IMG/VR virus record: IMGVR_UViG_3300027967_000009
Coordinates: 1 to 55,925 of that record
Reading direction: 5' to 3' (one strand)
Length of the DNA stretch: 55,925 nt
Origin: a virus
The notes under the pieces are model-generated. The model did no database searches and was not told where the DNA came from. It saw only the letters and a list, made by a program, of their open reading frames with translations. Made by a program: the position numbers and the translations under genes. Below, piece by piece: positions 1-55,925 of the stretch. Each line of letters opens with the position of its first letter. The first letter of the stretch is position 1.

Positions 1-92
1 TAACCACCACACTATCACCCATGTATGATATACATTAAACCTATACGTATAGGTTTAATGTATATCATACATGGGTGATAGTGTGGTGGTTA
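1..92. repeat. telL: Left telomere palindrome (telL hairpin read-through)
   Basis: Bases 1-92 form a perfect inverted repeat with no spacer; the axis lies between 46 and 47 in the self-complementary core CCTATACGTATAGG. The same core and about 43 bp of each arm recur at the right end. Protelomerases of N15-type phages cut such a site and seal both ends as hairpins. A sequencer reading round the closed hairpin yields exactly this mirrored extension, so bases 1-46 are probably the opposite strand of 47-92 rather than extra genome. Confidence 0.9.
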
Positions 93-3876: not shown

Positions 3877-4512
3877 ATGTATCGTGACGAAATAAGCCCT
3901 GAAATGAGGCTCTTTAGCCCATCTGGTGAAAGACTATATTGTACTGCTGACGAAAGAGCTAGATTTCTTGATGCAGCTCAAGACGAAGATCCAATAAATA
4001 GAATGTTTTGCCAAGTTCTTCATTATACCGGTTGTCGGCCGCGTGAAGCGATAGAGCTGGAATATGAGCGAATACTCATTGATGATTGCTCTATTGTATT
4101 TCGCTGCTTAAAGAAACGTAAAACTGATAATCAAGGCAGAATTAAACAACCACAATATAGAAGTGTACCTGTACCAAAACTATTAATTGAAAACCTAGAT
4201 TTAGTTTTTGGCGTTCGCAGAGTTCAAGCAAAAAAGAAACAATTGTCTGAGCGCCTTTGGCCTAAATGTCGTACAACTTATTACCGCATGATCAAGAACG
4301 TAATGGCTAGAGCAAACATTCATGGAGAAATGGCAACGGGTAAAGGTTTGAGGCATGGCTTTGGTGTCGCAATGGTTACAGCTAAAAAGCCCTTACCTAT
4401 CCATATACTATCTAGACTAATGGGCCATTCAGACAGTAAAACCACTGAGATTTATTTACAGATAATTGGAGAAGAACAGCGGCAATTAGTGAATGATGCT
4501 TGGGATAGCTAA
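3877..4512 (+). CDS. Tyrosine recombinase (short integrase-like)
   Basis: This 211-residue protein consists almost only of a tyrosine-recombinase catalytic domain. Visible active-site elements are the first Arg in GCRPREAIEL (about residue 55), a Lys in the LKKRKTD beta-hairpin, the box KGLRHGFG with Lys where HxxR usually has His, GHSDSKTTEIY with the second His, and the nucleophile Tyr at about 196. The N-terminal arm-binding domain of phage integrases is missing. It could resolve multimers or be a remnant integrase, as N15 also keeps an integrase-like gene. It lacks the features expected of an integron integrase. Confidence 0.8.
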   Translation: MYRDEISPEMRLFSPSGERLYCTADERARFLDAAQDEDPINRMFCQVLHYTGCRPREAIELEYERILIDDCSIVFRCLKKRKTDNQGRIKQPQYRSVPVPKLLIENLDLVFGVRRVQAKKKQLSERLWPKCRTTYYRMIKNVMARANIHGEMATGKGLRHGFGVAMVTAKKPLPIHILSRLMGHSDSKTTEIYLQIIGEEQRQLVNDAWDS

Positions 4513-30869: not shown

Positions 30870-31679
30870 CTAATGTAATACTGATGTTGGTGTGTTACTC
30901 ACCAAAACATTCTCTGGGGTAACACTGATTAATACTGACTTTTGTGGGTCAATATCTTCGATTAAACTACTTACCAAGTAACCAGGTAATGCCTGGTTAT
31001 GTTGCTCTGCTATCGCTGGCTCTAATTCATGCACTTGAATGACAAAGTTGTTCTCGCCTTGGTTTTGCTGTTGAGCAATGGCTAATTCATGCTTTAAGCC
31101 TTGGATAACTTCAAGCAACAAAGCTTTGTTATGCTGTTCTGCCACTGTTGAAAGTAAACCATGAACTTGGCCAATGGTTATTTTTAGTGCTTTATTAACT
31201 TGCTGCGCGGTAACTACACCAAGGGTGTGAACTGTACCAATAGCGGGTTTAGTTGCTTTATTTTCCTGCTTAGCAACTGATGCATCTAATTGATGAAGTT
31301 GCTCTATATCACCGCTTAATGCTTTATTAACTTGTTGAGCTATTGCTAAACCAAGTAAATGTGCTTGATTTAATTCAACGCTTGTTGCTTGGTTTGTTTG
31401 CTGTGCTTTTGCTAAAGATAAATTGTGTTGCTGAAACAGTTCACTAACTAATGCTTTATTGGTTTGCTGTGCTACAACAGCATCCAATATGCTGGTTGAT
31501 GCTAATGATAACGTTAATGCTTTATTAATCTGTCTTGCAACGCTTACTGATAGATTATGTACTTGGCTTGCTGGTAGCTTAGCTGCTTGATTAGTTTGTT
31601 GGGCTATTGTTGTTGATAATTCATTAACTACCGCCACGCCAGTCCAGTTATTAATTTTACCCCATGCATTTAAACTCAT
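30870..31679 (-). CDS. Repeat protein with about ten QxH-L...AQQxNKAL units
   Basis: This 269-residue protein is built from roughly 24-residue repeats: QVHNLSVSVARQINKAL, QQHNLSLAKAQQTNQAT, QAHLLGLAIAQQVNKAL, QLHQLDASVAKQENKAT and so on. Regular Gln/Asn/His suggest stacked beta turns or a fibrous homotrimer. A short nonrepetitive start (MSLNAWGKINNWTG) and a C-terminal piece (VLISVTPENVLVSNTPTSVLH) flank them. Its start overlaps the end of the esterase spike gene by 4 bp (ATGA), so the two are coupled and may form one appendage. Confidence 0.7.
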   Translation of the reverse strand: MSLNAWGKINNWTGVAVVNELSTTIAQQTNQAAKLPASQVHNLSVSVARQINKALTLSLASTSILDAVVAQQTNKALVSELFQQHNLSLAKAQQTNQATSVELNQAHLLGLAIAQQVNKALSGDIEQLHQLDASVAKQENKATKPAIGTVHTLGVVTAQQVNKALKITIGQVHGLLSTVAEQHNKALLLEVIQGLKHELAIAQQQNQGENNFVIQVHELEPAIAEQHNQALPGYLVSSLIEDIDPQKSVLISVTPENVLVSNTPTSVLH

Positions 31680-33331
31680 GCTGTTATCGCTTCTAATGCG
31701 CTGCCATCAATACTAGCCTCTAGGTTATCTATTACATGGCCTGATACTGTAGTGCTTTTAGGTGCATCAATTAAAACACTAGTATTGTTATTAGACCACA
31801 CTAAATCTCCATCATGTAAGATTCTATCAGTTCCACTTTCAACTAACCTTGTATGATATGTACCATCAGGTATACCTGGTGCCGTTAAATTCGCGGTTGA
31901 TGTGTTAATATCATCATACTGAATCTGTGCAGCTTGGTTTAAATCAGGAGTCAATATGATATGAAGGTCATCGTTTCGTGGATCGGTAGCTGAAGATATA
32001 TCCATCACAGATAAATCACCCCCAGGTAAAGCATTGGGATTAGAAGCCAATACAGCATTGAAAGCTAATAAGGTATCTCCACTAATTGTTGGATATTTGG
32101 TTAGGTTATACCCACACCCAAAGTCAGCTTTAACATCATTAATAAATGCGTTTAAATTAGCCTCGATTGTAGCTTGACCATCACCTTCATCGTTTTCACC
32201 ACCAATGCCTGCACACGCTGAAAGTGTTCCACCAACAGCATCAGCAAAAGCTTGTAATCTAGGGTATAAACTTCCTGTTTTTTGCCATTGACTATATCCT
32301 TGACCTCCCTGAGCGACATTACCAATACAAATAGGTACTCCTGCATTTGCAAATAAACTAGCCAACCTAGCATCTGTACTACCTGCTGAGTTGTTATCAT
32401 AGCCGTTTGTAGGGTCTGTCAGAGGTTGAAACACACCATCTTTCCACATAATAGGTAATGGTTTATTGCGACTAAATGAGGGCACCTGTAATTCCCCCCC
32501 TCTACTCGATGTATTAGATTGTCCAGGTCTGCCCATTGTCCAAGCGGCTGTTATATAAATAACTTCAGCATTGATAGATTTATCATTTCCAAAGGCGACA
32601 ATAATATCAACTTGACCTTTAACTCTAACATTAGCTGAAAACCCATCACCAGTAGGCGATGCATCTAAAACAACAAAATCAACACCACCATTCATGCTTA
32701 ATACTATTGTGTCGGGACTACCTGAATAAGTACCAGCTATAGGGAATACGGCCTCACCATTTTCATCATGAGTGATGCACTGATAATCCGCAATAGATGT
32801 TATAACTATATTGCCAGCTGTATCAACAACGAAACCACCAGTAGTATATCCAGTTAATGTTCCATTCTGTCCATCTAATGTGTCTACCAATATTGTATCG
32901 GTTGGTAGAGTGTAATCATCAGTGTCATAAGATCGACTATTGACTCCATCACCAGACATGTCTAATGTGCTTCTGATGACCTTGGTAAATGCTCTACCAA
33001 TTTCTGAAAGGGTAAAATTGCCTGCCGCAACTTTAACGGTAGAGGATACACCATTAGCAGTTAATGTCACATTGTTTGAAGCATCGCGAACTAACGTCCA
33101 GTTTATTATTTCATCTTCGGTGAAGGACCAAGAACCATCTATAAATGTTCCAGCAACCTTAGCCCTAAATACTCCGCTAGCAATAGCCACAAAATGACTG
33201 TTGGAGCTATAGAGCACATATGTATTACCTGCAGCTGTAGAGTAAGTAAAAGACCCACTCAGGCTAAATGCGCCTGTGAATGTTATAGGGGGTATTGTAA
33301 CCTTACCTGTCGTGTCGCCTTTTATTGCCAT
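31676..33331 (-). CDS. Tail spike with SGNH esterase domain
   Basis: This 551-residue protein has an N-terminal jelly-roll-like half. The second half has SGNH-hydrolase signatures: GRPGQSN with the nucleophile Ser near residue 270, GGENDEGDG near 378 (the GxND-type block), and DDLHI with catalytic Asp and His near 458. This is the order in sialate O-acetylesterase-like enzymes. On a phage it would deacetylate host surface polysaccharide during adsorption. Confidence 0.75.
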   Translation of the reverse strand: MAIKGDTTGKVTIPPITFTGAFSLSGSFTYSTAAGNTYVLYSSNSHFVAIASGVFRAKVAGTFIDGSWSFTEDEIINWTLVRDASNNVTLTANGVSSTVKVAAGNFTLSEIGRAFTKVIRSTLDMSGDGVNSRSYDTDDYTLPTDTILVDTLDGQNGTLTGYTTGGFVVDTAGNIVITSIADYQCITHDENGEAVFPIAGTYSGSPDTIVLSMNGGVDFVVLDASPTGDGFSANVRVKGQVDIIVAFGNDKSINAEVIYITAAWTMGRPGQSNTSSRGGELQVPSFSRNKPLPIMWKDGVFQPLTDPTNGYDNNSAGSTDARLASLFANAGVPICIGNVAQGGQGYSQWQKTGSLYPRLQAFADAVGGTLSACAGIGGENDEGDGQATIEANLNAFINDVKADFGCGYNLTKYPTISGDTLLAFNAVLASNPNALPGGDLSVMDISSATDPRNDDLHIILTPDLNQAAQIQYDDINTSTANLTAPGIPDGTYHTRLVESGTDRILHDGDLVWSNNNTSVLIDAPKSTTVSGHVIDNLEASIDGSALEAITA

Positions 33332-41984: not shown

Positions 41985-42848
41985 CTACTTATTTAACGGG
42001 CTATTAGCCCAAATTTGTTGTAGTTTGCTTGTGACCCCAGTGCTAAGTTGAATAACTGTCGATTCTCGTAAACACACAGCAACAAGCTCTATTAGTTTGT
42101 CTTGCAGTAGTTGAAGCTCTGCAATATCGTCACGTTCATCATACTCACCATCCATTGCGGGTTTTGAGCCGCCAATAACATCAGCAAACTGTCTGCTTAT
42201 TTCATCTATCCGAGCGGTGGTTTCTTTTGTGTTGATTTGAGTAGCGCTTGGTAAAGGTATTAGCATGTAACCAGTATTAGCCATCATTTGGTTAAGCGCA
42301 GTTTGTTTAATGTTTTCAGGCAGGCATGACAACCAATAATGTTTCCATGACAACGGCATGGGTTTTTCTTCATTTAATATTCGTGAAACTCTTTGTAGTG
42401 CTGTGTTTTTCCACGTTTGGTATTCGCTAATTTGCTCAGGCACGCTTTTAACCAAGTTGTCGGCGGCAAGTTTCTCGTAAAGCTCTTCCGAAAACTTAGT
42501 TATTGTCATTGGCGTACTGTCTATCCAATGCTGTGTTATATCTAACAGTAACTTTTGTTCGTTGAATGTTGTGTCAGCGCTATGACAAAGACTTTCATCA
42601 GCAATAGGGCTATAATTAACAATGAAGTCAGGATAATGCTCAGGTGATAAGACGTGCTCGGTTTTTAAGCCTTGCTGTTCAAAAATGCTAACCAGAGCAG
42701 TAAGTAATTTTTTACTTACATTGTTAACGGGTTTAGTCTCTAGGCGTGACAGCGTATTCTTAGAGCCACCCGGAACACCGTTTAAAAGTTTTTCTAACGC
42801 TGTTAAAGATAGGTTTCGCGCATCTCTACATTTTTTTAGAGGTGTCAT
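41985..42848 (-). CDS. HTH early regulator (Cro/CII-like)
   Basis: This 287-residue protein starts at ATG 42848 with AAGGA upstream. The N-terminal MTPLKKCRDARNLSLTALEKLLNGVPGGSKNTLSRLE is a helix-turn-helix. The C-terminal part (WKHYWLSCLPENIKQTALNQMMANTGYMLIPLP) resembles phage regulatory CII-type proteins. It is the first gene of the leftward early operon and faces the CI-like gene across overlapping promoters, so it is the lytic partner of the switch. Confidence 0.75.
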   Translation of the reverse strand: MTPLKKCRDARNLSLTALEKLLNGVPGGSKNTLSRLETKPVNNVSKKLLTALVSIFEQQGLKTEHVLSPEHYPDFIVNYSPIADESLCHSADTTFNEQKLLLDITQHWIDSTPMTITKFSEELYEKLAADNLVKSVPEQISEYQTWKNTALQRVSRILNEEKPMPLSWKHYWLSCLPENIKQTALNQMMANTGYMLIPLPSATQINTKETTARIDEISRQFADVIGGSKPAMDGEYDERDDIAELQLLQDKLIELVAVCLRESTVIQLSTGVTSKLQQIWANSPLNK

Positions 42849-42860
42849 TTTGCTTTGTCC

Positions 42861-42910
42861 TTGATAAGCATATTTGCGTACACTATACATTAAACATTTA
42901 TGCTTATCAA
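42861..42910. promoter_or_regulatory. Immunity switch: overlapping divergent promoters on a 12-bp inverted repeat
   Basis: TTGATAAGCATA (42861-42872) and its exact complement TATGCTTATCAA (42899-42910) form an inverted repeat. Rightward promoter: TTGATA (42861-42866), 17 bp, TATACA (42884-42889), for the repressor. Leftward promoter: TTGATA (minus strand, 42905-42910), 17 bp, TATAGT (42882-42887), for the early operon. The two -10 boxes overlap, so the promoters exclude one another, and each arm contains a -35. A further AAGCATATT half-site lies near 42919. Confidence 0.8.
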
Positions 42911-42964
42911 ATATGGGAAGCATATTATTTTTTATGGCAAAATATCTTTTTTAATGGGAAATTT

Positions 42965-43615
42965 ATGCTAATGAACAAAACACTTGGGCAATGCCTTGAA
43001 TTCTACAGAACGGAACTCGGTTGGAGTCAAACGCAAGCATCGGGTGAAACTGATTTTGTTATTTCTCAACAGCAAATCGGCAAGCTAGAAAAAGATGACA
43101 TTAAAAACCCTGGTATATTTACCATAAACACCCTGCTTGATGCTTACAATAAAGAGCCTAACGATTTAAAAAAAGACATGGCTGAAGGTGTAGAGGTTGC
43201 GGTAAAAGAACAGGCGCCTTTATTTTCTGTTAGCTCAACTATCCCTTTACTTCATAGCAAAGACATTAAGTGCTACTTAACGGGTGAGCCGGTTACAGCA
43301 ATTGACCACATCCCTTATACTGAAAACCCAAGTAAAAAAATATACGCTGTTAAGTTGGCCAATGAATTAATGAGAGCTAACACTGGTAATAGTTACCCTG
43401 AAAAAAGCATCGTTATTTTTGATGCCACAAAGGTATTTAAAGATCATAGGGATATGATGATAGAAGTCGACGGGGATATTTTATTTAGACGCGTATTTAA
43501 AGACGGATCTACCTATTTTGTTAAAACAACCAACCCAGAATTTCCAAATTCAAGCTCCTGTAAAGATATTTCTTATTTAGGCAGAGCTGTTGAATGTAGA
43601 ATTATAACCAAATGA
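42965..43615 (+). CDS. CI-like prophage repressor (S24-fold, degenerate active site)
   Basis: This 216-residue protein starts at ATG 42965. An N-terminal helix-turn-helix (LGQCLEFYRTELGWSQTQAS..., about residues 5-65) precedes a LexA/CI-like C-terminal domain (KKIYAVKLANELMRANTGNSYPEKSIVIFDAT). Where cleavable repressors have SM with the nucleophile Ser, this one reads ELM, and the catalytic Lys position appears to be Arg (LFRRVF). It probably represses without SOS self-cleavage. Its promoter overlaps that of the early operon. Confidence 0.8.
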   Translation: MLMNKTLGQCLEFYRTELGWSQTQASGETDFVISQQQIGKLEKDDIKNPGIFTINTLLDAYNKEPNDLKKDMAEGVEVAVKEQAPLFSVSSTIPLLHSKDIKCYLTGEPVTAIDHIPYTENPSKKIYAVKLANELMRANTGNSYPEKSIVIFDATKVFKDHRDMMIEVDGDILFRRVFKDGSTYFVKTTNPEFPNSSSCKDISYLGRAVECRIITK

Positions 43616-44206: not shown

Positions 44207-44240
44207 CCCTATTTTTATTTGAATTATGTGGAGGTTGGTC

Positions 44241-47200
44241 ATGAAAAAACTAACCTTACAACAATTTTATCAAGACAAATTTAGAGGTGACGCCACACTT
44301 TTAATGGCTCACCCTGAAGCATTTAATCAATTGTCTGCTGAGGCAGATAATGCCTATGTGGTTTGGTCTGATATTTGTAACGACATTGACCCAAGCAGAA
44401 TGGGCGGTAAAAACAGTGATAAGTTCACTGGTAAAGTGCCTGTTTCAAACACTAAATACAAAGGCCGTGCGGCTGTTTATAGTAACCTACGTAGCTCGGA
44501 CGATAATACCTTTGAATACCCCACGGTTAACTTTGTATTAAAAGGTAATAACGTTGGTGGTTGGTCTGGTCTGTCTTTGTTAGTAAAACTATACAAAGAA
44601 CACAAGGGTACTATTACTGACAATGAACGACTTAAATGGCAGCGCGAGAGCGAGGCTAAAAAGAAACAATTACTTGCAAAACAAAGCGCAGCAAAGCAAG
44701 AAGGCGAACGCAAAGAAAAACGAAAACACGAATTAAATCAACAGTATAGTGCACTTTTTGATGTTTCACCAAAAGAAGATGGCAGCCAGAGTTACTTAGT
44801 TAAGAAAAAAATAGCTGAGGTGGTTCAATACATAGATATTCGTCGCTGTGTTGAGTTTGATGATGTATATAGCTTAGGTAGAAAAGGCCAAGAGTTTTTA
44901 GCGATTCGCTTTATCGATATTGACGGTAACTATGTTGGTCTTCAACGAATATATGAAGATGGCGCCAAGCTCAACACACCAGGCTTTGATTTTAGCAACG
45001 GTGCACACTGTGTTATTGGTGACATTGATGCTGCAGACGAAAACTATATTTACGCCGGTGAGGGTTTTGCTACTTGTGCAAGCGCTATGCTTGCTATGCA
45101 CAACCATAAAATTGCTAATAATCGCAAAAAAACAGCAGTTATCATAGGTATCAACTCAAACAATTTAAAGAAATGTTTGGCTCTTTTTAAAGACCAAGAA
45201 GCTGACCTAAAAATAAATCATCTGGCTGATAATGACCAATGGAAAAACCAACAAGGTAAAGGTAATGCTGGTTTATTAATTTCATGTTTTGCTGTTGATG
45301 TACTGGGTTATAAATCGGTGGTACCGCTTTTTGAAGATTACACCTTTGATGGTGTTGAATTTGATGAACGACCAACCGATTTTAATGATTTACATTGCCT
45401 TGCTGGGTTAAGTGAGGTTAGACGACAACTAAAAGCCCAGCGCAATAAATTTAAATCTTCAGGTAAAAGCCCTTTTGATAAAACTTGCCGTGAGCTGCGT
45501 TATATTGCTGCTGGTAACGATAATAAAAAGCTCTTTGAGTTAGTTAATAGAGCAATTCAACAAGGTGTCCAACTTTACCCTATACATTACGGTGTGGCTG
45601 ATATTCTTGCTTGTATTGAACACAACATTAAACACCTTTATCACCTGTTTGATAAAGTGAGTTACTTTAATGAACTAAGTGGTCGCTTAAATTGGATTAT
45701 AGGTAAACGTGTCAATAATGCTCAGGCATTCCGTTCGTTTAGTGAAGAGGTTATTTCTAAGCCTCACGTTAACTATAAAAAGTTTAATGACACCCGAATA
45801 ACGCCCGAGATTTATGCGTACATTAAAAACTTAAATGGGGCCGTAGTGGTAAGGGCGCCTATGGGTAGTGGTAAAACCCAACACTTACTTAGCCCACTGA
45901 TGGCCAAATCAGATAGAGCTGCGTATTTTGCACACCGAGTATCATTAATCGCCTCAAGTGTTAGTAATTTAAATAAACGCAGAACAACTCACGCAATTAA
46001 TAAATTTTCGCCCGTTGAACTTGAGCATGTAGATCATATCTTTGCCCAATCTTTTACTCCGGTTGGCTTGAGTAAGTCATTGCCGACTGATTTTTTAGTT
46101 CAAAACTACCAAGACTTTAAAGGTAACGGTATGGGTGTGTTTGCTCGCTCTGTTGAGCAAATGGCCATGTGTATCAACTCTATTACTAATCCATCGTTTT
46201 CACCATTATTGGAGGATTTGGATTTTTCAGCATTTGATGAAGCCGCTCAAACATTGCGCCACGTAGCAGATGGTAGTGCATGTGATAAACCTGAAATGGT
46301 TTATAACGCTATGCTTAAAACCATTAAAAACAGCAGCAAGCAGGTTATTTTGTGTGACGCTGATGCCAATGATGAAGTGATTGAAATGTGCGAACAAGCT
46401 CGCCCTGGTGAAATAATTCATGTGGTTGAGCTAGACACCGATTTCAGCGACATAAAAGTAAAATATACAGACAATGGCGATCAGGTTTTCAACCAAGTGT
46501 TTACTGCTGTCGAAAATAATGAAAAAGTTATCGTTGCTAATGACTCGGCCACCAACGGCAAATCCATGTATGAGCGACTTAAAGAGCGCTTTCCTGCTAA
46601 ACGCTTCTTGTTTATTTACCAAGACTCAAAAGGCAATGCTGATGTTGATTACTTCAACCAAAACCCTGATTTAGCGGTAAACGAGCAGCAATATGATGCT
46701 GTTATTTACTCTCCTTGTATAAGTTCTGGTGTTTCGCTTGAGTCGGGCTATTTCACTAAACATTTTGCTATTTTATGCGGCACCGTAGCACCATCTGACG
46801 CCATTCAAATGATTAGACGCGATCGCTGTGCTAAAGAATTCATTATCGGGTTTAACAAACAAAACACCACATACCCCGAAACTAAAGAAGAAATTATTAT
46901 CGGTATGATCAAAGCGGATGATATCAATCTTACGCTCGATTTATCTGAAGGCATGATGCGACTTGGCCGTATGTACACCAAATTTGATGATATGCGTATC
47001 AATGTTATTGCTAAGCAAAATAGAGCGCGGAATGACTTTGCTAATAACATGCTATTGATACTGCAAGGGGATAAATATCAGCTTGAGCGCATTGCTGAAA
47101 ATGAAGTGGAAAAAGAAATAGGTAATGCACAACGTAACCTTGGTAGAGAAATAGCCAAAGCGCGTGATTTAGAGCTTCAATTAAATCAGGAAACACCCGA

Positions 47201-48110
47201 ACCAGAAACAGCTGAGCGACTTCGTAAAGAAGATTGCGTGAGTGAAGAAGAACGGGCGCAACTAAAACGTTATGATATTGAAACACAGTTATGTTCACAA
47301 GTTACCGCTGACACTATCGCGTTTAATGATGACCGCGGCATAAGTAAAGTAAAAAACTTTGAACTACTGAAAGGTAATATCAGCCAAGCCAATGCTTACG
47401 ATGTTTCTGAAATTGCCACCAATATTTCCTTTAGTGCTCGAGAACGAAAAACCGCAAAAATGAATCTACTGCACCAGGTGTTTTCAATACTAGGTGTTGA
47501 TAAGGCGTCTGGTGAAGGGGAGTTTACTGGCGAGCAAATGCGCCTAGTTCGTGATTCGCTGTTAGGTAGCGAAGACGATATTATGCTGTATAACACTACT
47601 CGTATAGGTGGCTACATTCACCCTAAAACGCGCAAGAAAAAATGTGAGACAACCTTTGTTAAAAATATTTTATCTAAATGCGGCCTCGAGCTTGGCTCAC
47701 GTTTAGAAGGTAAAGCGAGAAAACGCATATCATTTATCAAGCCTGGCGTATGGGATGTTATGCAATCCTACTTTAAAGCCCGTCAAGAACAAAGCATTTC
47801 GTCACTTGAGCCGTTGCAATATGATACTGATGCGGAGGTACTTAAGCGATCGGGTTTAACGATTGATATAAACCTTATTAATAAAGCCGATCACCAAAGT
47901 ATTACTTACGCAAAAATGGCTGGAAACGCTTTAACGGCGCTGGTTAACGAGGCTATCGAAGGATTGAATATTAGCTTTGAAAATGCGGTAAGCATGCTTG
48001 ATGGTGAAACTATCACTGATATTCTAAATGATGACATGCCAATTGGCATGTTGCGCTCATATTTCGCGACTCAAGAGAAATATGAACGGCAATTAATGGC
48101 TGTTTGTTAG
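44241..48110 (+). CDS. repA: RepA-type primase-helicase replication protein
   Basis: This 1289-residue protein is comparable to N15 RepA (about 1300). I chose ATG 44241 because GTGGAGG precedes it. A TOPRIM-like primase region includes YAGEGFATCASAMLA near residue 275 and HLADNDQWK near 330. The helicase part has Walker A APMGSGKTQHLL near 545, DEAAQ near 668, and YSPCISSGVSLESG near 832. In N15 one such protein replicates both prophage and phage, and the origin lies within its gene. It is preceded by twin hairpins that may limit its level. Confidence 0.92.
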   Translation: MKKLTLQQFYQDKFRGDATLLMAHPEAFNQLSAEADNAYVVWSDICNDIDPSRMGGKNSDKFTGKVPVSNTKYKGRAAVYSNLRSSDDNTFEYPTVNFVLKGNNVGGWSGLSLLVKLYKEHKGTITDNERLKWQRESEAKKKQLLAKQSAAKQEGERKEKRKHELNQQYSALFDVSPKEDGSQSYLVKKKIAEVVQYIDIRRCVEFDDVYSLGRKGQEFLAIRFIDIDGNYVGLQRIYEDGAKLNTPGFDFSNGAHCVIGDIDAADENYIYAGEGFATCASAMLAMHNHKIANNRKKTAVIIGINSNNLKKCLALFKDQEADLKINHLADNDQWKNQQGKGNAGLLISCFAVDVLGYKSVVPLFEDYTFDGVEFDERPTDFNDLHCLAGLSEVRRQLKAQRNKFKSSGKSPFDKTCRELRYIAAGNDNKKLFELVNRAIQQGVQLYPIHYGVADILACIEHNIKHLYHLFDKVSYFNELSGRLNWIIGKRVNNAQAFRSFSEEVISKPHVNYKKFNDTRITPEIYAYIKNLNGAVVVRAPMGSGKTQHLLSPLMAKSDRAAYFAHRVSLIASSVSNLNKRRTTHAINKFSPVELEHVDHIFAQSFTPVGLSKSLPTDFLVQNYQDFKGNGMGVFARSVEQMAMCINSITNPSFSPLLEDLDFSAFDEAAQTLRHVADGSACDKPEMVYNAMLKTIKNSSKQVILCDADANDEVIEMCEQARPGEIIHVVELDTDFSDIKVKYTDNGDQVFNQVFTAVENNEKVIVANDSATNGKSMYERLKERFPAKRFLFIYQDSKGNADVDYFNQNPDLAVNEQQYDAVIYSPCISSGVSLESGYFTKHFAILCGTVAPSDAIQMIRRDRCAKEFIIGFNKQNTTYPETKEEIIIGMIKADDINLTLDLSEGMMRLGRMYTKFDDMRINVIAKQNRARNDFANNMLLILQGDKYQLERIAENEVEKEIGNAQRNLGREIAKARDLELQLNQETPEPETAERLRKEDCVSEEERAQLKRYDIETQLCSQVTADTIAFNDDRGISKVKNFELLKGNISQANAYDVSEIATNISFSARERKTAKMNLLHQVFSILGVDKASGEGEFTGEQMRLVRDSLLGSEDDIMLYNTTRIGGYIHPKTRKKKCETTFVKNILSKCGLELGSRLEGKARKRISFIKPGVWDVMQSYFKARQEQSISSLEPLQYDTDAEVLKRSGLTIDINLINKADHQSITYAKMAGNALTALVNEAIEGLNISFENAVSMLDGETITDILNDDMPIGMLRSYFATQEKYERQLMAVC

Positions 48111-48174: not shown

Positions 48175-48447
48175 TTATTTCATGCTGTTGATAACGCTTT
48201 TAAGTTCACTTTCAATGTATTCATGAAGCGTTAGGTCAGCGCCTCTGGCGCTTTCGGCTAGCTTTTCGTTTAAATGTATCACACTACTTAGCTTTTTCAT
48301 TAAGTCATGTTTGGTGGGCTTTGTGATAACACTAACAGCATGCTCAAGCTGCTGCTCTGTAACACCGAGAAGTGAAGAAAGTTCAACGGGAAAGTCTGCA
48401 GCTGCTTTCTGAACCTGTATTAATAAATTTTGCTCTACTTGTGACAC
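48175..48447 (-). CDS. Hypothetical 90-residue protein
   Basis: I start this at GTG 48447, with AAGGAA eight bases before; the open frame reaches 48549, but its extension lacks a ribosome site and overlaps a terminator hairpin. The protein is helical (SQVEQNLLIQVQKAAADFPVELSSLLGVTEQQLEHAVSVI...) and may contain a helix-turn-helix. It converges on repA and could regulate its level. Not recognised. Confidence 0.55.
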   Translation of the reverse strand: MSQVEQNLLIQVQKAAADFPVELSSLLGVTEQQLEHAVSVITKPTKHDLMKKLSSVIHLNEKLAESARGADLTLHEYIESELKSVINSMK

Positions 48448-48527
48448 GAAAAAAATTCCTTTTTGACAACAAAATAAAAAGTCAGGATGAATACTAGTAG
48501 AGTAGAGGGCAACAAAGAAGACACGAA

Positions 48528-48555
48528 ATTTTTGTGGGTTTACTCCCACAAAAAT
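48528..48555 (-). terminator. Terminator after the kinase operon
   Basis: ATTTTTGTGGG/CCCACAAAAAT with a 6-nt loop forms an 11-bp stem, with A/T-rich flanks on both sides. Confidence 0.75.
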
Positions 48556-48574: not shown

Positions 48575-51421
48575 TTAGTTAACCAAACTTATCTGTGATT
48601 TTGGGGCAAAAAGTGGTGCATAAAAACTATCTTTCAATGCCTCGTAATGGCTGTTATAAACCATTTCAGCTTCACGCATAGCATTAGTGTACTGCTCATG
48701 TTTTCCATGCTCAAAATAGATATTAGCAAGCTGTAAGTAGATGTTCATCTTGTCAGGCGAGTGTGTTTTTTCTAAGTCACGCCACACAAACAAGGCCTCA
48801 GCCTTTTTGGCCAACTCAATACCTAATTCACTTTGTGCGTTAATTTGCCTTTCTATTAAAGCAATATCCAACATAACCCTAGCATTATCATCAGCCACAA
48901 AGCCTTGCTGTCCTTTTCTTAATGCTAACACCTCGGCAATACTAGCCAGTACCTTATCGTCATTATAATTGGCAAAGTCATAGTAAAGTTTAACCAACTG
49001 CAACTCATAGGGCTCAACCATATCGTTATAATCTTCATTGGTTTTCAATAAAGTGCTCAGCAGTGTATCAGCAACGGGTTTTAACAACGGGTTAGTGCGG
49101 TCAAAGCCGGTAAACTCTAAATAATTTATAAGCAATACACGAATAGAGTCTAAACCGACAAAGCCATATCGGTCAGCGCTTTTATTATAATTTTCAAAAT
49201 AGGTTATCGCTTTATGAACCTCTCGCTCAGCGCTGGCTATATCCCCTTGGTAAAGGTAGCTTACACCTAACAAGTAACTGTTAAGCATCCACCCGTCAAA
49301 TTTTCTCCAACCATAATAATCGGTAGCGGCTTTAATACTTTGCGTGGCTAGCGGTAAGTCAAGCAAGCGATTAACCACATATTGGTTTCGCCACGACTCC
49401 ATTACTAATTCATTATCATTGCCAGGTAACTCACTGGCCATGTCAATAGTTTGTTTGGCTGCGTCTAACGCTTCATTATAATCACCAAGCTCATATAAAA
49501 CCCGAGACTTTAAATTAATGCTTTTAATCAACAGTTCGTTACCACTAACACTGTCAGGTATGTGATGTATTGCTTGTTCAATACTGCTCTGTGCATCGGT
49601 TAATACTGCAGTTAAATACCTGTTATGATCGTCTTCGCTTACACCATCGCCTGGGCTAATGTTTGAACCATCGTAGTAATAAAAATACTCGCGGGCTTGG
49701 TAATATTTTAATAAACCCTGTTGGTCCAACGCTAAATCCTGCCAATACAGTTTTTCTATTTGTTTTAACGTACTAAGTGCTTTGTCATCATCGCCATAAA
49801 CCTCAGAAATATATTTAACATCGGTATCAAATAGCGCTAAGTAACCCAAAGCATGCTCAACAGTAACAAAGCCATTTTTTTCTAACTCAAGCATAAAAGG
49901 TTGGGCAGCAGCTTGCGCTTGTTCAACCCTATCATTAAAAGATAACGCCTTAGCATACAACGCAGAAACAAGGGGTAAGTATTTGTTTTTGGCAACCGAA
50001 ATCGCTTTTTTATACAGCGAAATAGCAGCAGCAACTGATAACGGATCACCTTTTTGCATGGCAGCATTCGCGATAGCCATCGCGTGCTGATATACCAGTG
50101 CTTTATCAGCCTCAGTGTTATCAATAATACTCTTTAGATTTGTTAACGCGTCAAATTGTTCGTTTTGAACGTAATGAGCGTAATTATTAGCTATCTGCGT
50201 TAAAAATGTGTTGTTGTTATGCTGCTGCTGAATATAACCCGAAGACGTATAAGAAATAACAGAAAAAGTAATACAACTTACCGCCCCTGCAGTAGCTAAT
50301 GCGGCATGAACAGGCTTTAAAAAAAGATGCTTATAAATACGATAAAAGTAATTGTTATTATGTGATTTCACATAACCTAGCTCTAAAAAAACCGACAAAT
50401 CATGACTGAATTCAGCCATTGTTTTATAACGTTTTTCTTTATTTGGCTCAGTAGCTTTTAATAAAATACTATCAAGCTCTTTTATCCAGCGTTTATATTT
50501 TTTCTCATCGGGTGAAAAACTAATATTGTCGCTTGGTAAATTTTTTCTGACATCAAAGGGTGGTTTCAACCTGGTAAGCAGTTCGTATAAAACCAAAGCA
50601 ATTGAATAAACATCGCTACCAAAGGTTAAAGGCTCATTGTTTTTAAGCTCAGGGCTTGAATAATCACAACTAAACACTTCGGCATACTCGTAATTTTTTT
50701 CATCAACTTTCTTTTTAGCACGTTGGGCAATACCAAAATCACAAAGTAAAGGGTCCCCTTGCTTATCCATCAAAATATTTGAAGGTTTAATGTCAGCATG
50801 TATATAAGAATAACTTGAGTGGGCAAAATGTAATGCATCGCAAACTTTTAAAACTGCTTGGATGGTGTTTTTAATGTTTGAAAAAATCAAACTATTTAAT
50901 AAACCGTCAGTAATATTGCCGTAGTCAACATAATCCATCACGTAAAAAGGCAGTTTTAAATTGTTATAATCAATAACGCCAGCATCAAAAACACGCGTGA
51001 TATATTTATGCTTGAGCTGCGCCATAATGTTGGCTTCGCGATCTATTAAGTCATAATCATAAACATTAATTAAATGTGGCTTAACCACTTTAACCACGGC
51101 CTTTTGATTAACCAGTAAACCATCTAACCGCTCAGCATAAAAAATATGGCCCATACCACCAGAGGTAATATAGTTCATTAGGGTGTAGTTGCCCACGTCT
51201 TTACCCAGCAGTGTTTTGGGGTCAAAAGAGCTCTCAACAAAAGAACTAAAGCTAACAGAATAGGCATCGGGTGACATTTCAACATCACTAGCCACCTCAA
51301 TCAAATTCAGCACATCGTTTTTTAACGTTTCATCATTGCCACATAACCTATCAAGCTTTTCATCTCTTAATCTGGGTGGCGTATTCTCAATAACGTTCCA
51401 TATCTCGAATAAATCAGCCAT
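48575..51421 (-). CDS. Transmembrane Hanks-type Ser/Thr protein kinase with TPR-like sensor
   Basis: This 948-residue protein has an N-terminal helical region (1-75) and then the kinase domain (about 78-345): the glycine loop SGGMG (87-91), VAIK-type Lys in AVVKVVK (111), the catalytic loop IHADIKPSN with Asp210, DFG at 228-230, and APE-like SSPEL. A membrane span lies near 370-390 (AALATAGAVSCITFSVI), and the remaining 550 residues are helical TPR-like repeats. Such kinases usually pair with ECF sigma factors; here the sigma gene overlaps by 8 bp. All catalytic residues are present, so it should be active. Confidence 0.92.
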   Translation of the reverse strand: MADLFEIWNVIENTPPRLRDEKLDRLCGNDETLKNDVLNLIEVASDVEMSPDAYSVSFSSFVESSFDPKTLLGKDVGNYTLMNYITSGGMGHIFYAERLDGLLVNQKAVVKVVKPHLINVYDYDLIDREANIMAQLKHKYITRVFDAGVIDYNNLKLPFYVMDYVDYGNITDGLLNSLIFSNIKNTIQAVLKVCDALHFAHSSYSYIHADIKPSNILMDKQGDPLLCDFGIAQRAKKKVDEKNYEYAEVFSCDYSSPELKNNEPLTFGSDVYSIALVLYELLTRLKPPFDVRKNLPSDNISFSPDEKKYKRWIKELDSILLKATEPNKEKRYKTMAEFSHDLSVFLELGYVKSHNNNYFYRIYKHLFLKPVHAALATAGAVSCITFSVISYTSSGYIQQQHNNNTFLTQIANNYAHYVQNEQFDALTNLKSIIDNTEADKALVYQHAMAIANAAMQKGDPLSVAAAISLYKKAISVAKNKYLPLVSALYAKALSFNDRVEQAQAAAQPFMLELEKNGFVTVEHALGYLALFDTDVKYISEVYGDDDKALSTLKQIEKLYWQDLALDQQGLLKYYQAREYFYYYDGSNISPGDGVSEDDHNRYLTAVLTDAQSSIEQAIHHIPDSVSGNELLIKSINLKSRVLYELGDYNEALDAAKQTIDMASELPGNDNELVMESWRNQYVVNRLLDLPLATQSIKAATDYYGWRKFDGWMLNSYLLGVSYLYQGDIASAEREVHKAITYFENYNKSADRYGFVGLDSIRVLLINYLEFTGFDRTNPLLKPVADTLLSTLLKTNEDYNDMVEPYELQLVKLYYDFANYNDDKVLASIAEVLALRKGQQGFVADDNARVMLDIALIERQINAQSELGIELAKKAEALFVWRDLEKTHSPDKMNIYLQLANIYFEHGKHEQYTNAMREAEMVYNSHYEALKDSFYAPLFAPKSQISLVN

Positions 51422-52028
51422 TTTTACTACTCAACAAATGCGATTTAATAACGGCATCAGCAAACTCTAGGTAGCGATAAAAGGTGCTTTCACTTATACC
51501 GAGTATCACTGTTATTTTTTGAACATCAACCCCCCAAAGCCTATATAAACTAAAGGCAATAGACTGCTGTTTTGCTTTGCTTTCTAAGACTGAAATAGCT
51601 TCATCTAGCATTAAAAAAGAGTGTTCACTGTTTAATGAGTTACTGTCTGACAAATACGCGTTTGGGCAGGCACCTATTTGAACTCTATTATCAGCCCCAT
51701 GCCTGCTCAACTTTCTGGCTTCATCAACCAAGGTTGAGTACACCATTTTTCTCAATAAAATAAACAAATCGTTAATGGAGTGAAAATAAATATTATTTTG
51801 TTTGGTAAGTAGCTTAATAGAAACCGTTTGAGCAATATCGTTAACACCAAACAGTTTTAACGGAGTAGCAACCACTTTACCTTTGCTAAATTCTAACGCT
51901 GAAAATTTAGTAATAAATGGCTGTAAATAAATAACCAAATCATTTCTAGCTTGTTGGCAACCAGCGTTCCATTGCTCAATTAAATAGGTAAGCTTTTCAA
52001 CATCAACATCAACATCAACATCAAGCAT
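51414..52028 (-). CDS. ECF-like sigma factor linked to the kinase
   Basis: This 204-residue protein fits a group of ECF-like sigma factors encoded beside Ser/Thr kinases: the region-2 helices around NDIAQTVSIKLLTKQ... FILLRKMVYSTLVDEARKLSRHGADNR, then region 4 helix-turn-helix (KQQSIAFSLYRLWGVDVQKITVILGISESTFYRYLEFADAVI). The start ATG 52028 has a GGGGG ribosome site and overlaps the phosphatase end by 8 bp. The N-terminus is encoded by four GATGTT repeats. Probably directs RNA polymerase to unknown promoters when the kinase signals. Confidence 0.82.
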   Translation of the reverse strand: MLDVDVDVDVEKLTYLIEQWNAGCQQARNDLVIYLQPFITKFSALEFSKGKVVATPLKLFGVNDIAQTVSIKLLTKQNNIYFHSINDLFILLRKMVYSTLVDEARKLSRHGADNRVQIGACPNAYLSDSNSLNSEHSFLMLDEAISVLESKAKQQSIAFSLYRLWGVDVQKITVILGISESTFYRYLEFADAVIKSHLLSSKNG

Positions 52029-52731
52029 TGTTAGCCCCCTTTAATTCAAATAATTGCTTTGCTGTTAATACGGTTATTTCATTTGAACATCGTAACGTGT
52101 CTATCCACACTTGGTTTTGCTTAACCACAACGTTCTGGCTGTTTGTATGACCATGAACAGTAAGATCAATATTGCTGATGGCTTGTTCTAAAGACTTTGG
52201 GCGGTTAAATTTTTCACTAGACCAAAACAATAAATCTTGCTGATCGTCAGGTAAATCAGAGTGGATAATATCATGCCAATCATCGGGCGCTTGGGCGTGG
52301 GTTAACCCAATATTCCCATAAGGTGTTTCAATGGTAATGGCTAAATGCATTTTGGCATAAACAATCGCCATAAAAAAAGTAAGTTGTTTGTCGGTGTTTT
52401 CTAGCTGTAGCAACCATTGACCACCAATGTTAAGCAAGGTGTCAATCAACTCAGGGTTAACCCTAAGATCTAAAAGCATGTCTTCGTGATTGCCCATCAC
52501 CGCAAAGAACCAAGGTTCAAGCAATAAATGTAAACACTCAGCTGACTTGTCTCCTCGGTTAATCAAATCACCTACCGAAAACACCCGGTCACCGTTATCA
52601 GCATTAAAACCAGCGCAAGCCAATGACTTCATCAGCACATCGTAATGGCCATGAACATCGCCAATAAAGTAATCCGTTCCTTTTTCATTAACACTAAAGT
52701 GCTGATGATAATTAATCCGTTTTTTTGGCAT
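52021..52731 (-). CDS. Metallophosphoesterase (lambda-type Ser/Thr phosphatase family)
   Basis: This 236-residue protein starts at ATG 52731 (no clear ribosome site; an in-frame TTG lies 9 bp upstream). It carries the full motif set of lambda/PrpA-type phosphatases: GDVHGHYD near 25, GDLINRGDKS near 55, GNHEDML near 80 and HGHTNSQ near 190. These bind two metals and remove phosphate from Ser/Thr (or diadenosine tetraphosphate in relatives). Overlap with the sigma gene and nearby kinase suggests it reverses the kinase. Confidence 0.9.
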   Translation of the reverse strand: MPKKRINYHQHFSVNEKGTDYFIGDVHGHYDVLMKSLACAGFNADNGDRVFSVGDLINRGDKSAECLHLLLEPWFFAVMGNHEDMLLDLRVNPELIDTLLNIGGQWLLQLENTDKQLTFFMAIVYAKMHLAITIETPYGNIGLTHAQAPDDWHDIIHSDLPDDQQDLLFWSSEKFNRPKSLEQAISNIDLTVHGHTNSQNVVVKQNQVWIDTLRCSNEITVLTAKQLFELKGANNA

Positions 52732-52782
52732 AACAAACAAAAGTAAAAAGTGATGCTTTATAGTACACCAAAGCTAAAAATG

Positions 52783-52827: not shown

Positions 52828-53040
52828 CTAGATGCGCACTTTGCCGCGACTAGAGCCTGTTTTTTTGTATTCAATTCTAACTTTGCCGCGACTAGAACCA
52901 ATTTCTTTATAATCAATTCTAACTTTACCACGACTAGAACCAACTTCTTGGCTAGTAACAGTGTTGTTATCAACTACGGGTGTAGCGTCTACAGTTGCTG
53001 GTGTTAAAGATAAAACTGCCGCTAAAAGTGTGCTTAACAT
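52828..53040 (-). CDS. Secreted peptide with three GSSRGKVRI repeats
   Basis: This 70-residue protein starts at ATG 53040 (AGGGAA upstream). A signal peptide (MLSTLLAAVLSLTPATVDA, then TPVV) is followed by three copies of GSSRGKVRI separated by DYKEI and EYKKT; the 42-bp unit is conserved at DNA level too. The mature part is short, basic and repetitive, like a bacterial exopeptide or a surface-binding peptide. It lies between the kinase operon and a lipoprotein gene. Function unknown. Confidence 0.72.
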   Translation of the reverse strand: MLSTLLAAVLSLTPATVDATPVVDNNTVTSQEVGSSRGKVRIDYKEIGSSRGKVRIEYKKTGSSRGKVRI

Positions 53041-53115
53041 ATTGTATTCCCTATAAGTGTCAAAAATTTGTTGAACACTTATAGAGCAATAATTAAGCCA
53101 AGGTTGGTTTAGTGT

Positions 53116-53700
53116 TTATATTCCCTTATGTTTTTTCATATCCTCATACAGCTTCATAAAAGCTAACTTAGCCAACGCTTGGCCACTGTTACGCTCAATG
53201 GTGAAATCAGCATTCTCATAGCCACTACTAGTATGAATTCTTAGATCACAGTTTTTAGCAGCAATCATTTTTTTAAAAAGTTCAAACGGTATAGCGATAG
53301 TGCTTTCACTTTCAGTAAAAATACTTTTAGAAATAGTATTCCAGCCATCATGACTTAAACGAGTTCCGTAAGTATCGAATCGCTCTACTTCTCCATTTAT
53401 TTTTATACTTACGCCATCAATACTTGTATAAATAGCTCGGCCGTTAGTATCTGAACCGTACACCATACTTAGCACAACAGTGTCAGGCATGGATTCATTA
53501 TAATAAGCCCCCATACGAACAGAATTATTAAGCATCCCACCATCATTTAGATAAGTAGGGGTAACAACAACTTGGTAGTTACCCTCAAAATCTTTTGATG
53601 AAGTGAGTTGGCCAACACCAGTGGCCTTATCAAGCGAATCAGCAACGCTGGCACAGCCAATAACAGTTAATGCAAGTAAAAGTATGAGTATTTTTTTCAT
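53116..53700 (-). CDS. Lipoprotein, possible superinfection exclusion
   Basis: This 194-residue protein has a lipoprotein signal (MKKILILLLALTVIGCA; lipobox IGCA). The mature part is beta-rich (NYQVVVTPTYLNDGG... VVLSMVYGSDTNGR) with two later Cys. AAAGGAA precedes the start. In N15 the lipoprotein Cor blocks the phage receptor; the position beside the telomere makes a similar role here possible, but the sequences cannot be compared by eye. Confidence 0.7.
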   Translation of the reverse strand: MKKILILLLALTVIGCASVADSLDKATGVGQLTSSKDFEGNYQVVVTPTYLNDGGMLNNSVRMGAYYNESMPDTVVLSMVYGSDTNGRAIYTSIDGVSIKINGEVERFDTYGTRLSHDGWNTISKSIFTESESTIAIPFELFKKMIAAKNCDLRIHTSSGYENADFTIERNSGQALAKLAFMKLYEDMKKHKGI

Positions 53701-53755: not shown

Positions 53756-55711
53756 TTACAACTTTTTCACCTGAATTTTATTATGTGGCCCTTTAAAGCT
53801 AGCTAAGCCAGCATCATTCAAAGCAATTCTTTCAGCATCCTTTTCATTTTTAGCGTAAAGAGTGTCTTGAAAATAAGGTCCTGACTTATAAGGAATGGTT
53901 ACTTTAAACTCAAACAACTCACCAACAAATAAAGCATAACCTGTCTTCATGGCTAATATTTTATCGTCAGAGCGCAGCGTAAACATGGCTGTTTTATTAC
54001 CTAACGATACCGATATTTTCCATTTATCATCACCTAAGTCATGAGCTTTAATGTGGGGTTTTTCCGATTTTTTAGTTTGAGGGCTTTCTTTTACCTCAGC
54101 TTTTTCTACTACCGCTTTAACTTGCTCAACCGGCTCATCTTCAATGTCTTCTTCATGTTGAACAGATAAAGGTTCACCAGGGGAAACTAAATCACCAATA
54201 GCCGCTAAGTAGTTTTTAATAGTGCCTCGGTAAACCCCAGTTTCCCGCGTCAGCATTGATTGGTTTATTTCAATAAACGGGTTTTTCTCAACCTCATTTT
54301 TAACCCATGTGTGAAGTTTAATTGCTGCATCACCTCGAGCTAAACCTTCCATTATATCGTCTAATTCGCACAGCTCTTGCCAGCGTTCGTTAACCGTTGC
54401 CGTTGGCTCATAATCAGCAACAAAGTTATTTAATTTGTACGGTTTATAGTGTGCTTGGGCGTTAGTGTCATTGTGAACAAATAACTCATAAAAAAAGATA
54501 TCTTCGTCTTTATCGCGCCAGCGAGGATCGGTTAAATAATATTTTTGGTAACAAATTCGGCCATATATGCCGCGCGTATCTTTTGGTACTCTACGCTTAT
54601 CAACAAAGAAATCTTTGGCAAAATCGCTTAGGTGAGGTGCCACTTTTCCCTTTATCACCTCGTTATCAGTTCGATGATCTTCACCTTCGCTTTCAGAAAT
54701 AATTTTTTGAGTAATAGGGTGATTACGAAGAACACCAAAAGCATTTAGAAAAACATCATTATCAACTAAGCAATAAATCAAATTACTTTGCTCAGCCTCT
54801 TCATCAGTACGTTTTTTAGCTTGCCCTGAAAATAGTAATTGATGCTTGCCTTTAGCCTTGAAATAGCCAGTTTTTAATATCTCAATAGGGCGCCTACCAG
54901 TAGCAGCACATAACGCAAAAACCAAAGGAGCTATGCCACTTACCAAACCATTAAATGTAGCATCAGGGTGAGATAAAATTGATAGAATGCGCTCCATATA
55001 AGAAGGGTAATCAACATACACGACAGTGGTTTTCTTTTTATTTAGACTGCTTTTAGCCTTATTGCTTAGCACGGCTTTATCAGCGTGTGGCAGCACCAGG
55101 TTAACTATTAACTCATGATCAACCTTTAAAGCTTTAAGCTCTCCAAACAAGGGCTTAGCCTCATTAACAGCCTTAATTAACGTGGTTTTTGCTGCCATAG
55201 TATTATCCTTATCACCCAGAGCAGTAATTAAACTCTCGTATTCAGGGTATTCTTCGGCTAGCTTCTTTAATTTTCTAGTTAACGATTTACTAAAATCAAG
55301 CAAATCAACTTTTTCCATCAGCTCATGGCTTGCTGCAAGGGCGTCTAATAAGTTTTTTTTAGCTATTCTAGCTTCAGTTGGTTCTAAACCAGATAAACCA
55401 AGCAAAAAACCACTATGTGCTGGGTATTTTTTGGTTAATCGACCCAATTCACTTTCATATCTATGATGAATGCCGCTTATATTTTGAATAGCTTTTCTAA
55501 CCTTTGTTAAGTAGCTTCTAGCTGTGCTCAGTGTTATTTTTGAATCCGCCCGCTTCCTGCCGTCACCATATAATTTGTTAATAAAAACACTAGCAAGGCT
55601 TTGAAATTTCTTTGTTTTCTTATGCTGTGGAATGTCGCTATTCTCTATACCATTAAACTCAATAACTAACCATTCAATTAATTCCTTCAACTTTATTTTT
55701 TGTGTAGACAT
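53756..55711 (-). CDS. telN: Protelomerase (hairpin telomere resolvase)
   Basis: This 651-residue protein is of the TelN/TelK type (about 630-640). It has a long N-terminal helical domain (1-225), then the tyrosine-recombinase-like catalytic core with the active-site Arg in ATGRRPIEI (273/274), Lys in GQAKKRT (299/300), Arg in DTRGIYGR (380-385), His near 413 in LFVHND, and the Tyr in AHYKPYKL at 422. The C-terminal region binds the arms. It cuts and rejoins telRL into covalently closed hairpins. It lies next to the right telomere; a telomere box at 55763-55773 overlaps its promoter region, hinting at autoregulation. AAGGA precedes the start. Confidence 0.95.
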   Translation of the reverse strand: MSTQKIKLKELIEWLVIEFNGIENSDIPQHKKTKKFQSLASVFINKLYGDGRKRADSKITLSTARSYLTKVRKAIQNISGIHHRYESELGRLTKKYPAHSGFLLGLSGLEPTEARIAKKNLLDALAASHELMEKVDLLDFSKSLTRKLKKLAEEYPEYESLITALGDKDNTMAAKTTLIKAVNEAKPLFGELKALKVDHELIVNLVLPHADKAVLSNKAKSSLNKKKTTVVYVDYPSYMERILSILSHPDATFNGLVSGIAPLVFALCAATGRRPIEILKTGYFKAKGKHQLLFSGQAKKRTDEEAEQSNLIYCLVDNDVFLNAFGVLRNHPITQKIISESEGEDHRTDNEVIKGKVAPHLSDFAKDFFVDKRRVPKDTRGIYGRICYQKYYLTDPRWRDKDEDIFFYELFVHNDTNAQAHYKPYKLNNFVADYEPTATVNERWQELCELDDIMEGLARGDAAIKLHTWVKNEVEKNPFIEINQSMLTRETGVYRGTIKNYLAAIGDLVSPGEPLSVQHEEDIEDEPVEQVKAVVEKAEVKESPQTKKSEKPHIKAHDLGDDKWKISVSLGNKTAMFTLRSDDKILAMKTGYALFVGELFEFKVTIPYKSGPYFQDTLYAKNEKDAERIALNDAGLASFKGPHNKIQVKKL

Positions 55712-55762: not shown

Positions 55763-55810
55763 AACATACATAGCAAGTGCTTTGTATACAACACTATACA
55801 ACATACATAG
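55763..55810. repeat. Right telomere-proximal boxes
   Basis: AACATACATAG occurs at 55763-55773 and at 55800-55810, the inverted form of the boxes beside the left telomere. The outer copy is part of the mirrored palindrome. They probably bind protelomerase. Confidence 0.6.
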
Positions 55811-55925
55811 TATCAACTACCACCACACTATCACCCATGTATGATATACATTAAACCTATACGTATAGGTTTAATGTATATCATACATGGGTGATAGTGT
55901 GGTGGTAGTTGATACTATGTATGTT
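55800..55925. repeat. telR: Right telomere palindrome (telR hairpin read-through)
   Basis: A perfect 126-bp inverted repeat centred between 55862 and 55863, with the same core as the left end. The mirrored part after 55862 is most simply the opposite strand of the closed hairpin. The arms differ from the left telomere beyond the shared CCACCACAC stretch, as expected for telR and telL halves of one telRL site. Confidence 0.9.

Follow-up and report, generated by a model that had tools for sequence, protein, structure and literature searches.

Introduction

In the ECF43 family of sigma factors, a neighbouring receptor kinase phosphorylates a threonine in region 2.2, resulting in activation of the sigma factor (PMC8999054, PMC13147305). 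Activation of ECF43 members by a neighbouring Hanks-type kinase has been described for EcfP–PknT of V. parahaemolyticus and EcfK–PknS of X. citri (PMC8999054, PMC13147305), and the phospho-accepting threonine, the third residue of what was the DxxD motif, is conserved in 88% of the members (PMC13147305). A second described system is found in the linear plasmid phages, in which the repA–telN interval holds transcription factor–small open reading frame (TF-smORF) modules that bring about lysis without requiring SOS; their regulator activates the smORF, which in turn inactivates CI (PMC10432266; kinases are not mentioned in the text of that paper). Here, we analysed IMG/VR virus record IMGVR_UViG_3300027967_000009 in its entirety (55,925 bases, hereafter the window), with a focus on a phosphatase–sigma–kinase gene triplet and the small repeat gene next to it. 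In the literature and collections searched, we found no phage module in which an ECF-type sigma factor is coupled to a transmembrane receptor kinase.

The phosphatase–sigma–kinase operon

An earlier note on this DNA had described a phosphatase, an ECF-like sigma factor and a 948-residue membrane kinase with 8-bp overlaps at positions 48575–52731. The open reading frames (ORFs), the overlaps and the family assignments were all confirmed. The three ORFs lie on the minus strand within 48575–52731, with an 8-bp overlap between phosphatase and sigma genes (ATGCTTGA, 52021–52028) and another between sigma and kinase genes (ATGGCTGA, 51414–51421). The features of the operon are as follows, where TPR stands for tetratricopeptide repeat.

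52021..52731, minus strand: PPP/lambda-PP (NinI-like) phosphatase, 236 aa; ATG at 52731; GDVHG, GDLINRG, GNHED, THAQ and GHTN intact
51414..52028, minus strand: ECF-type sigma factor, 204 aa; 8-bp overlaps on both sides; region 2.2 reads GVND-IAQT-VSIKL
48575..51421, minus strand: Hanks-type Ser/Thr receptor kinase, 948 aa; kinase domain 76–347, hydrophobic segment ~371–389, all-helical TPR-like ectodomain ~400–938
52811–52783, minus strand: strong intrinsic terminator with a 13-bp stem at the boundary between small gene and phosphatase operon; position conserved in four loci
52757..52762, minus strand: TATAAA, a −10 candidate for the operon promoter that directly follows the terminator; recognized by eye, not a scan hit

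The phosphatase matched Metallophos/NinI (PHROG, E 5e-56) and the lambda-PP structure 1g5b (E 7e-25), and contains every motif that marks the lambda-PP branch of the PPP family (GDxHG, GDxxxRG, GNHE/D, His and GH). The sigma factor scored 39.8 bits against PF07638 (Sigma70_ECF; cut-off 21.1), and its AlphaFold model showed an ECF fold, with matches to SigW, AlgU and RpoE. The kinase matched PF00069 (Pkinase, E 7.5e-29) and is PknB-like, with the fold and the catalytic Lys, Glu, Asp, Asn, DFG and SPE of Hanks-type kinases (K111, E129, D210, N215, D228 and SPE). The earlier statement that all catalytic motifs are intact was thus correct for the phosphatase set and for these kinase residues, but the kinase has HAD for HRD and a serine for the first P-loop glycine, and the sigma factor is without most of the canonical acidic region-2.2 motif, keeping a single acid (D64). 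The best structural matches of the C-terminal region of the kinase were TPR-type helical repeat proteins; from the topology and from the layout of PknS, this ectodomain is probably periplasmic. Terminators had also been proposed to separate the operon from its neighbours: the upstream one (52811–52783) is strong, but none was found between the kinase and its next gene. The sigma gene opens (~52000–52028, minus strand) with four copies of a GATGTT hexamer repeat, encoding DVDVDVDV; its relatives are without this repeat.

The kinase domain also matched the PADLOC PD-T4-6 models (best E 7e-42), as would be expected of an anti-phage defence kinase that phosphorylates its targets on superinfection, with the sigma factor in a secondary role. 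However, these models act as generic models of Hanks kinases, and the match to NCBIfam PknB was equally good (E 1e-42), so the PD-T4-6 label was rejected as unspecific. The membrane/TPR layout and the overlap with the sigma gene fit ECF43-type receptor kinases instead, and we consider a defence kinase very improbable. For the superinfection sensing suggested in the earlier note, nothing was found in support.

Recurrence of the module in other elements

Scans of IMG/VR for close relatives with the window sigma factor, kinase and telN singly gave no hit, nor did a scan of GTDB genomes with the sigma factor. Annotated phages and plasmids contained no sigma homologue, and kinase matches among them covered at most about half of the protein, mostly the kinase domain. 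None of 20 other telomere-phage records contained the kinase family. Among 369 gammaproteobacterial genomes searched, genome G162 proved to have a relative of the sigma factor on a contig of 57,582 bases, where the phosphatase gene overlaps the sigma gene and the kinase gene lies next; identity to the window proteins, over nearly full length, was 45% for the phosphatase, 34% for the sigma factor and 31% for the kinase. This contig is circular, as indicated by a 127-base terminal repeat, and contains portal, terminase, DarB-like, SSB and ParA genes, with no detectable protelomerase. It corresponds to IMG/VR record IMGVR_UViG_2893759370_000002, the sole find of our IMG/VR profile scans, and is a phage-plasmid unrelated to the telomere phage of the window.

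A family-level kinase profile search recovered three further full-length kinases above 930 bits (next best below 200), one in G837:C388 and two in genome G808. The G837 contig (locus L246) represents one arm of another telomere phage, assembled across its hairpin. Its gene order is telN, small gene, phosphatase, sigma, kinase, repA and CI, in the same slot as in the window, and identity to the window was 45% for kinase and sigma factor, 50% for the phosphatase and 53% for telN. The search for the triplet in other prophages, proposed in the earlier note, therefore yielded the same gene order in the G837 telomere phage and the G162 phage-plasmid, with full-length ORFs in all three elements. The phosphatase is conserved in G837, G808 and G162. 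In G808, where the module is decaying, MotAB-like genes adjoin one set and further copies are truncated. The G808 loci L244, L245 and L260 contain several sigma/kinase copies, intact and truncated, one of them beside insertion sequence-like DNA, and one copy is accompanied by the repA-side small ORF of telomere phages; the copies at these loci, intact ones included, are likely phage debris or the result of domestication.

Between the G837 and G808 copies, non-synonymous divergence (dN) was ~0.13–0.18 and synonymous divergence (dS) 0.75–1.5, indicating that the triplet is under purifying selection. Since the same order is present in two other phages and dN is below dS, the gene order is not due to chance. 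The rarity of the module and the remnants in G808 might be taken as signs of a decaying chromosomal passenger without phage function. With full-length ORFs in three elements, dN well under dS, and conservation of the order, the overlap and the leader hairpin described below, such a passenger is already disfavoured, and we give it hardly any credence.

The small repeat gene and its leader

The extent of three genes proposed earlier was correct for those genes, but a fourth conserved gene (52828–53040), with a leader predicted to sequester the Shine–Dalgarno sequence, had been overlooked.

52828..53040, minus strand: small repeat gene, 70 aa; signal-like N-terminus (TVDA/TP) and three GSSRGKVRI repeats
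53038..53090, minus strand: small-gene leader, conserved; predicted hairpin in the RNA (~53086–53049) pairing the Shine–Dalgarno AGGG

In all four loci (window, G837, G162 and G808), a small ORF is located directly upstream of the triplet, followed by the terminator. The G837 counterpart has 80 aa with four GSSRGKVRI-type repeats, the G162 counterpart has 64 aa and that of G808 is decayed; across the loci, the repeats are of the GKxRI type. Annotated phages contain no homologue of the small protein, which belongs to no database family. The small repeat gene is part of the module, and its encoded N-termini appear to resemble short signal peptides.

In an alignment of the four leaders, 15 of 28 columns were invariant, compared with a maximum of 12 in 300 shuffles (none reached 15). 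The perfect motif GTGTYNAAYN6TTGACAC was always located at the small gene, once per genome and nowhere else in the four genomes, except that G837 holds it twice because its contig is mirrored. The predicted RNA hairpin takes up the Shine–Dalgarno sequence in all four loci (z −5.4, −5.0, −2.5 and −5.7), and the consensus includes three compensatory pairs with both sides changed. As these are only four sequences, three of them related, the evidence that the leader forms a structure is good but not overwhelming; it may act as an RNA hairpin, a DNA operator or both. The dyad was also considered as a sigma-dependent promoter and rejected, its start-to-start spacing of 15 nt being too short.

Several bacterial regulators that sense peptides bind them through TPR-type folds. 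The small repeat protein might accordingly be an exported peptide, or a precursor of one, that is read by the TPR ectodomain as an autoregulatory or cell-to-cell signal. The signal-like N-termini with a plausible −3/−1 cleavage site, the three or four tandem C-terminal repeats, the strict linkage to the kinase in four of four loci and the hairpin over the ribosome site are all consistent with this proposal. However, export is a prediction for an N-terminus without positive charge, and the decayed G808 copy has lost most of its repeats while the kinase beside it is still intact. Taken together, we regard a peptide signal as unlikely. Even more doubtful is its extension to a complete phage-encoded peptide circuit, in which the GKxRI repeats of the exported protein would be the TPR ligand, the relay would feed back on the hairpin-locked small gene, phage-plasmids of different kinds would sense or count one another through the envelope, and the acceptor of the telomere-phage sigma factors would have moved from position 3 to position 8 of region 2.2 (T68).

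The telomere phage and its repA–telN slot

1..92, no strand: hairpin telomere of the left end, read through; perfect inverted repeat of 46 bp without spacer
55800..55925, no strand: hairpin telomere of the right end, read through; perfect inverted repeat of 63 bp without spacer
53756..55711, minus strand: protelomerase of the TelN/ResT-TelK family; bounds the cargo slot on the right
44226..48110, plus strand: replication protein of the RepA type; its gene converges with telN and bounds the cargo slot on the left
42842..43615, plus strand: CI-like repressor with HTH_3 and Peptidase_S24 domains, putatively self-cleaving
48175..48549, minus strand: small ORF adjoining repA, probably with an internal true start; phage L008 and L260 have homologues

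The window is the complete prophage of a telomere phage, with the sequence reading through the hairpin at either end. Left and right ends agree exactly over their outermost 44 bp, so that the joined telRL would be an 88-bp palindrome; together with the protelomerase and RepA, these hairpin telomeres place the element among the telomere (linear plasmid) phages. The operon is therefore prophage-borne, as the earlier note assumed, but on a linear plasmid with hairpin telomeres and not in an integrated prophage. Other window proteins include ParA/ParB-like proteins and a terminase with its best match in Alteromonas phage P24 (51%), which suggests an alteromonad as the likely host of this virus of marine bacteria.

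The triplet occupies the interval between repA and telN, which are convergent and 5.6 kb apart. The window thus shows the arrangement of TF-smORF modules, namely, a position between convergent repA and telN within 10 kb and with an S24-type CI; in VP882, a LuxR-family regulator gene lies in this interval. Of the remaining telomere phages, L008 is the nearest (telN 53%); its slot is filled by different genes, but the repA-side small ORF is retained.

Between telN and the small gene, a 194-aa protein with a lipobox-like N-terminus (53116–53700, minus strand; PHROG 7678, function unknown) is encoded, which is not at the corresponding place in G837. Elsewhere in the window, we noted a virion-region protein with a weak, below-cut-off match to SASA acetylesterase (31676–33331, minus strand), and, besides the protelomerase, a short tyrosine-recombinase protein of 211 aa (3877–4512, plus strand).

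Relation to ECF43 and to chromosomal relatives

The sigma factor scored 50.5 bits (E 2.2e-13) against the curated ECF43 model TIGR02999, below its cut-off of 126.15 bits, and lacks the phosphothreonine; its assignment to ECF43 was rejected on these grounds. An adjacent Hanks-type kinase gene, as in ECF43 loci, is present with the 8-bp overlap. Judged from the genes, the kinase–sigma pair is like ECF43 in layout, and we do not file it as ECF43. In wider ECF43 loci, the kinase was directly adjacent in 57 of 86, and wider gammaproteobacterial ECF loci were for the most part more distant sigma–kinase pairs. Among 88 aligned ECF43 sigma factors, 82 have Thr at the phospho-site and all 88 have Glu five positions on. 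At the latter position, the window sigma factor carries Thr (T68), as do those of G837 and G808; that T68 is a relocated phospho-acceptor is a guess from this alignment.

In a tree of sigma factors, the four phage-type members formed one clade (100/100) on a long branch, which calls for the usual long-branch caution. The earlier note had set the triple module on a phage against kinase–sigma pairs on chromosomes. The triplet is indeed found in phages, but phosphatase–sigma–kinase sets, with genes adjacent or nearby, are also present on chromosomes of the Gammaproteobacteria G702, G541, G425 and G1145. Chromosomal sigma factors with a phosphatase neighbour fell outside the phage-type clade. Chromosomal sets of this kind were noted at the gammaproteobacterial loci L228, L229, L215 and L261, two of which have a short kinase (~383 aa).

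The chromosomal sets bear on the main rival reading, lysogenic conversion, in which the module is host-benefit cargo: the kinase would sense envelope damage, similar to PknT with polymyxin or PknS with amoebae, and the sigma factor would activate host envelope or defence genes, with the lytic switch uninvolved. Both characterized ECF43 systems regulate host survival genes (PMC8999054, PMC13147305), and several copies are kept in G808 outside recognizable phage. On the other hand, the sole conserved cis motif found, which need not be the promoter of the sigma factor, is confined to the module, with no other occurrence in the host genomes, and in two telomere phages, the module occupies the slot of lysis-control modules. 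Lysogenic conversion is possible, though we do not consider it probable. The earlier suggestion that the module reprograms the lysogen is possible as well, but the one conserved cis element found is the local one.

A proposed phosphorylation-controlled switch

With moderate confidence, we read the locus as a four-gene module in which a phosphorylation-controlled sigma switch provides an SOS-independent input. The gene identities and order, the conservation as a unit across unrelated phages, the purifying selection, the slot and the conserved hairpin are observations; for the membrane topology, the step from kinase to sigma factor, the target of the phosphatase, the small gene as output and the effect on lysogeny, we infer the following course. 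The kinase would be anchored in the inner membrane, and its TPR-like domain would lie on the non-cytoplasmic side. Once this domain is engaged, the kinase would phosphorylate the co-encoded ECF-type sigma factor, whose RNA-polymerase-binding surface seems too acid-poor to work well alone, and the phosphorylated sigma factor would start transcription. The lambda-type phosphatase would then reset the sigma factor, the kinase or both. The output would most likely include the adjacent small repeat gene, which would be silenced by the RNA hairpin over its ribosome site. The module would thereby form a second, SOS-independent input to the lysis–lysogeny decision, beside the CI predicted to be of the self-cleaving type, a role that we favour because the module lies in the window as TF-smORF modules do in their slot.

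Several observations weigh against this switch. The idea of a kinase-controlled sigma circuit gains from its recurrence as a unit in other phages and from ECF43, for which the biochemistry has been proven elsewhere, but the phospho-acceptor of ECF43 is missing: the window sigma factor has Asn at that position, and the residues at the phospho-site and at the invariant Glu are N/T in the window and G808, E/T in G837 and D/E in G162. The region 2.2 of G162 (SPDD-IAQE) looks competent without phosphorylation, and because this motif is acidic, a uniform phospho-mechanism is disfavoured. No sigma-dependent −35/−10 common to the upstream regions of the loci was recognized, and the conserved leader is a dyad or hairpin rather than a spaced −35/−10. 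The kinase domain and the transmembrane parts of the kinase structure model are of low confidence. Only four carriers of the module were found, none of the 80 protelomerase loci from IMG/VR (some of them fragments) contained any triplet gene, and the chromosomal relatives that have a phosphatase yielded no small repeat gene.

The presence of the same set in an unrelated virus suggests that the module is probably a means by which dormant viruses read the host surface. As it recurs in two phage-plasmid types that are unrelated, the module would qualify as a mobile signalling cassette. Should it control induction, lysogenic phages could respond to envelope signals directly instead of to DNA damage or quorum signals. 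The sigma factor, with the known acceptor gone and the invariant Glu replaced by Thr, is a natural test of how ECF phospho-activation evolves.

Comparison with known systems

The window phosphatase shares the full PPP motif set with the lambda PP/NinI phosphatases, which are common in phages (1150 records), and differs from other phage members in overlapping a sigma–kinase operon. ECF43 pairs resemble the window pair in the position of an ECF-type sigma factor beside a receptor kinase and in an acid-poor sigma region 2.2. PknS has the same layout as the window kinase, with an N-terminal extension, kinase domain, transmembrane segment and periplasmic TPRs, and the ECF43 pairs of Pseudoalteromonas xiamenensis share the 8-bp sigma/kinase overlap. 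Compared with ECF43, the window module is phage-borne, adds a phosphatase and a small repeat gene, and has Thr in place of the invariant Glu. In the chromosomal sets, by contrast, the sigma factors form a separate clade and keep Thr at the ECF43 site, and the kinase is short or the gene order different. The TF-smORF modules (VqmA–Qtip of VP882 and tf72–smORF72) share with the window the repA–telN slot, a nearby S24-type CI, and a regulator gene with a small ORF. Their regulator is a DNA-binding transcription factor, whereas that of the window is a kinase-linked sigma factor with a phosphatase, and the small protein of the window has the look of an exported protein, and its gene a leader predicted to mask the Shine–Dalgarno sequence.

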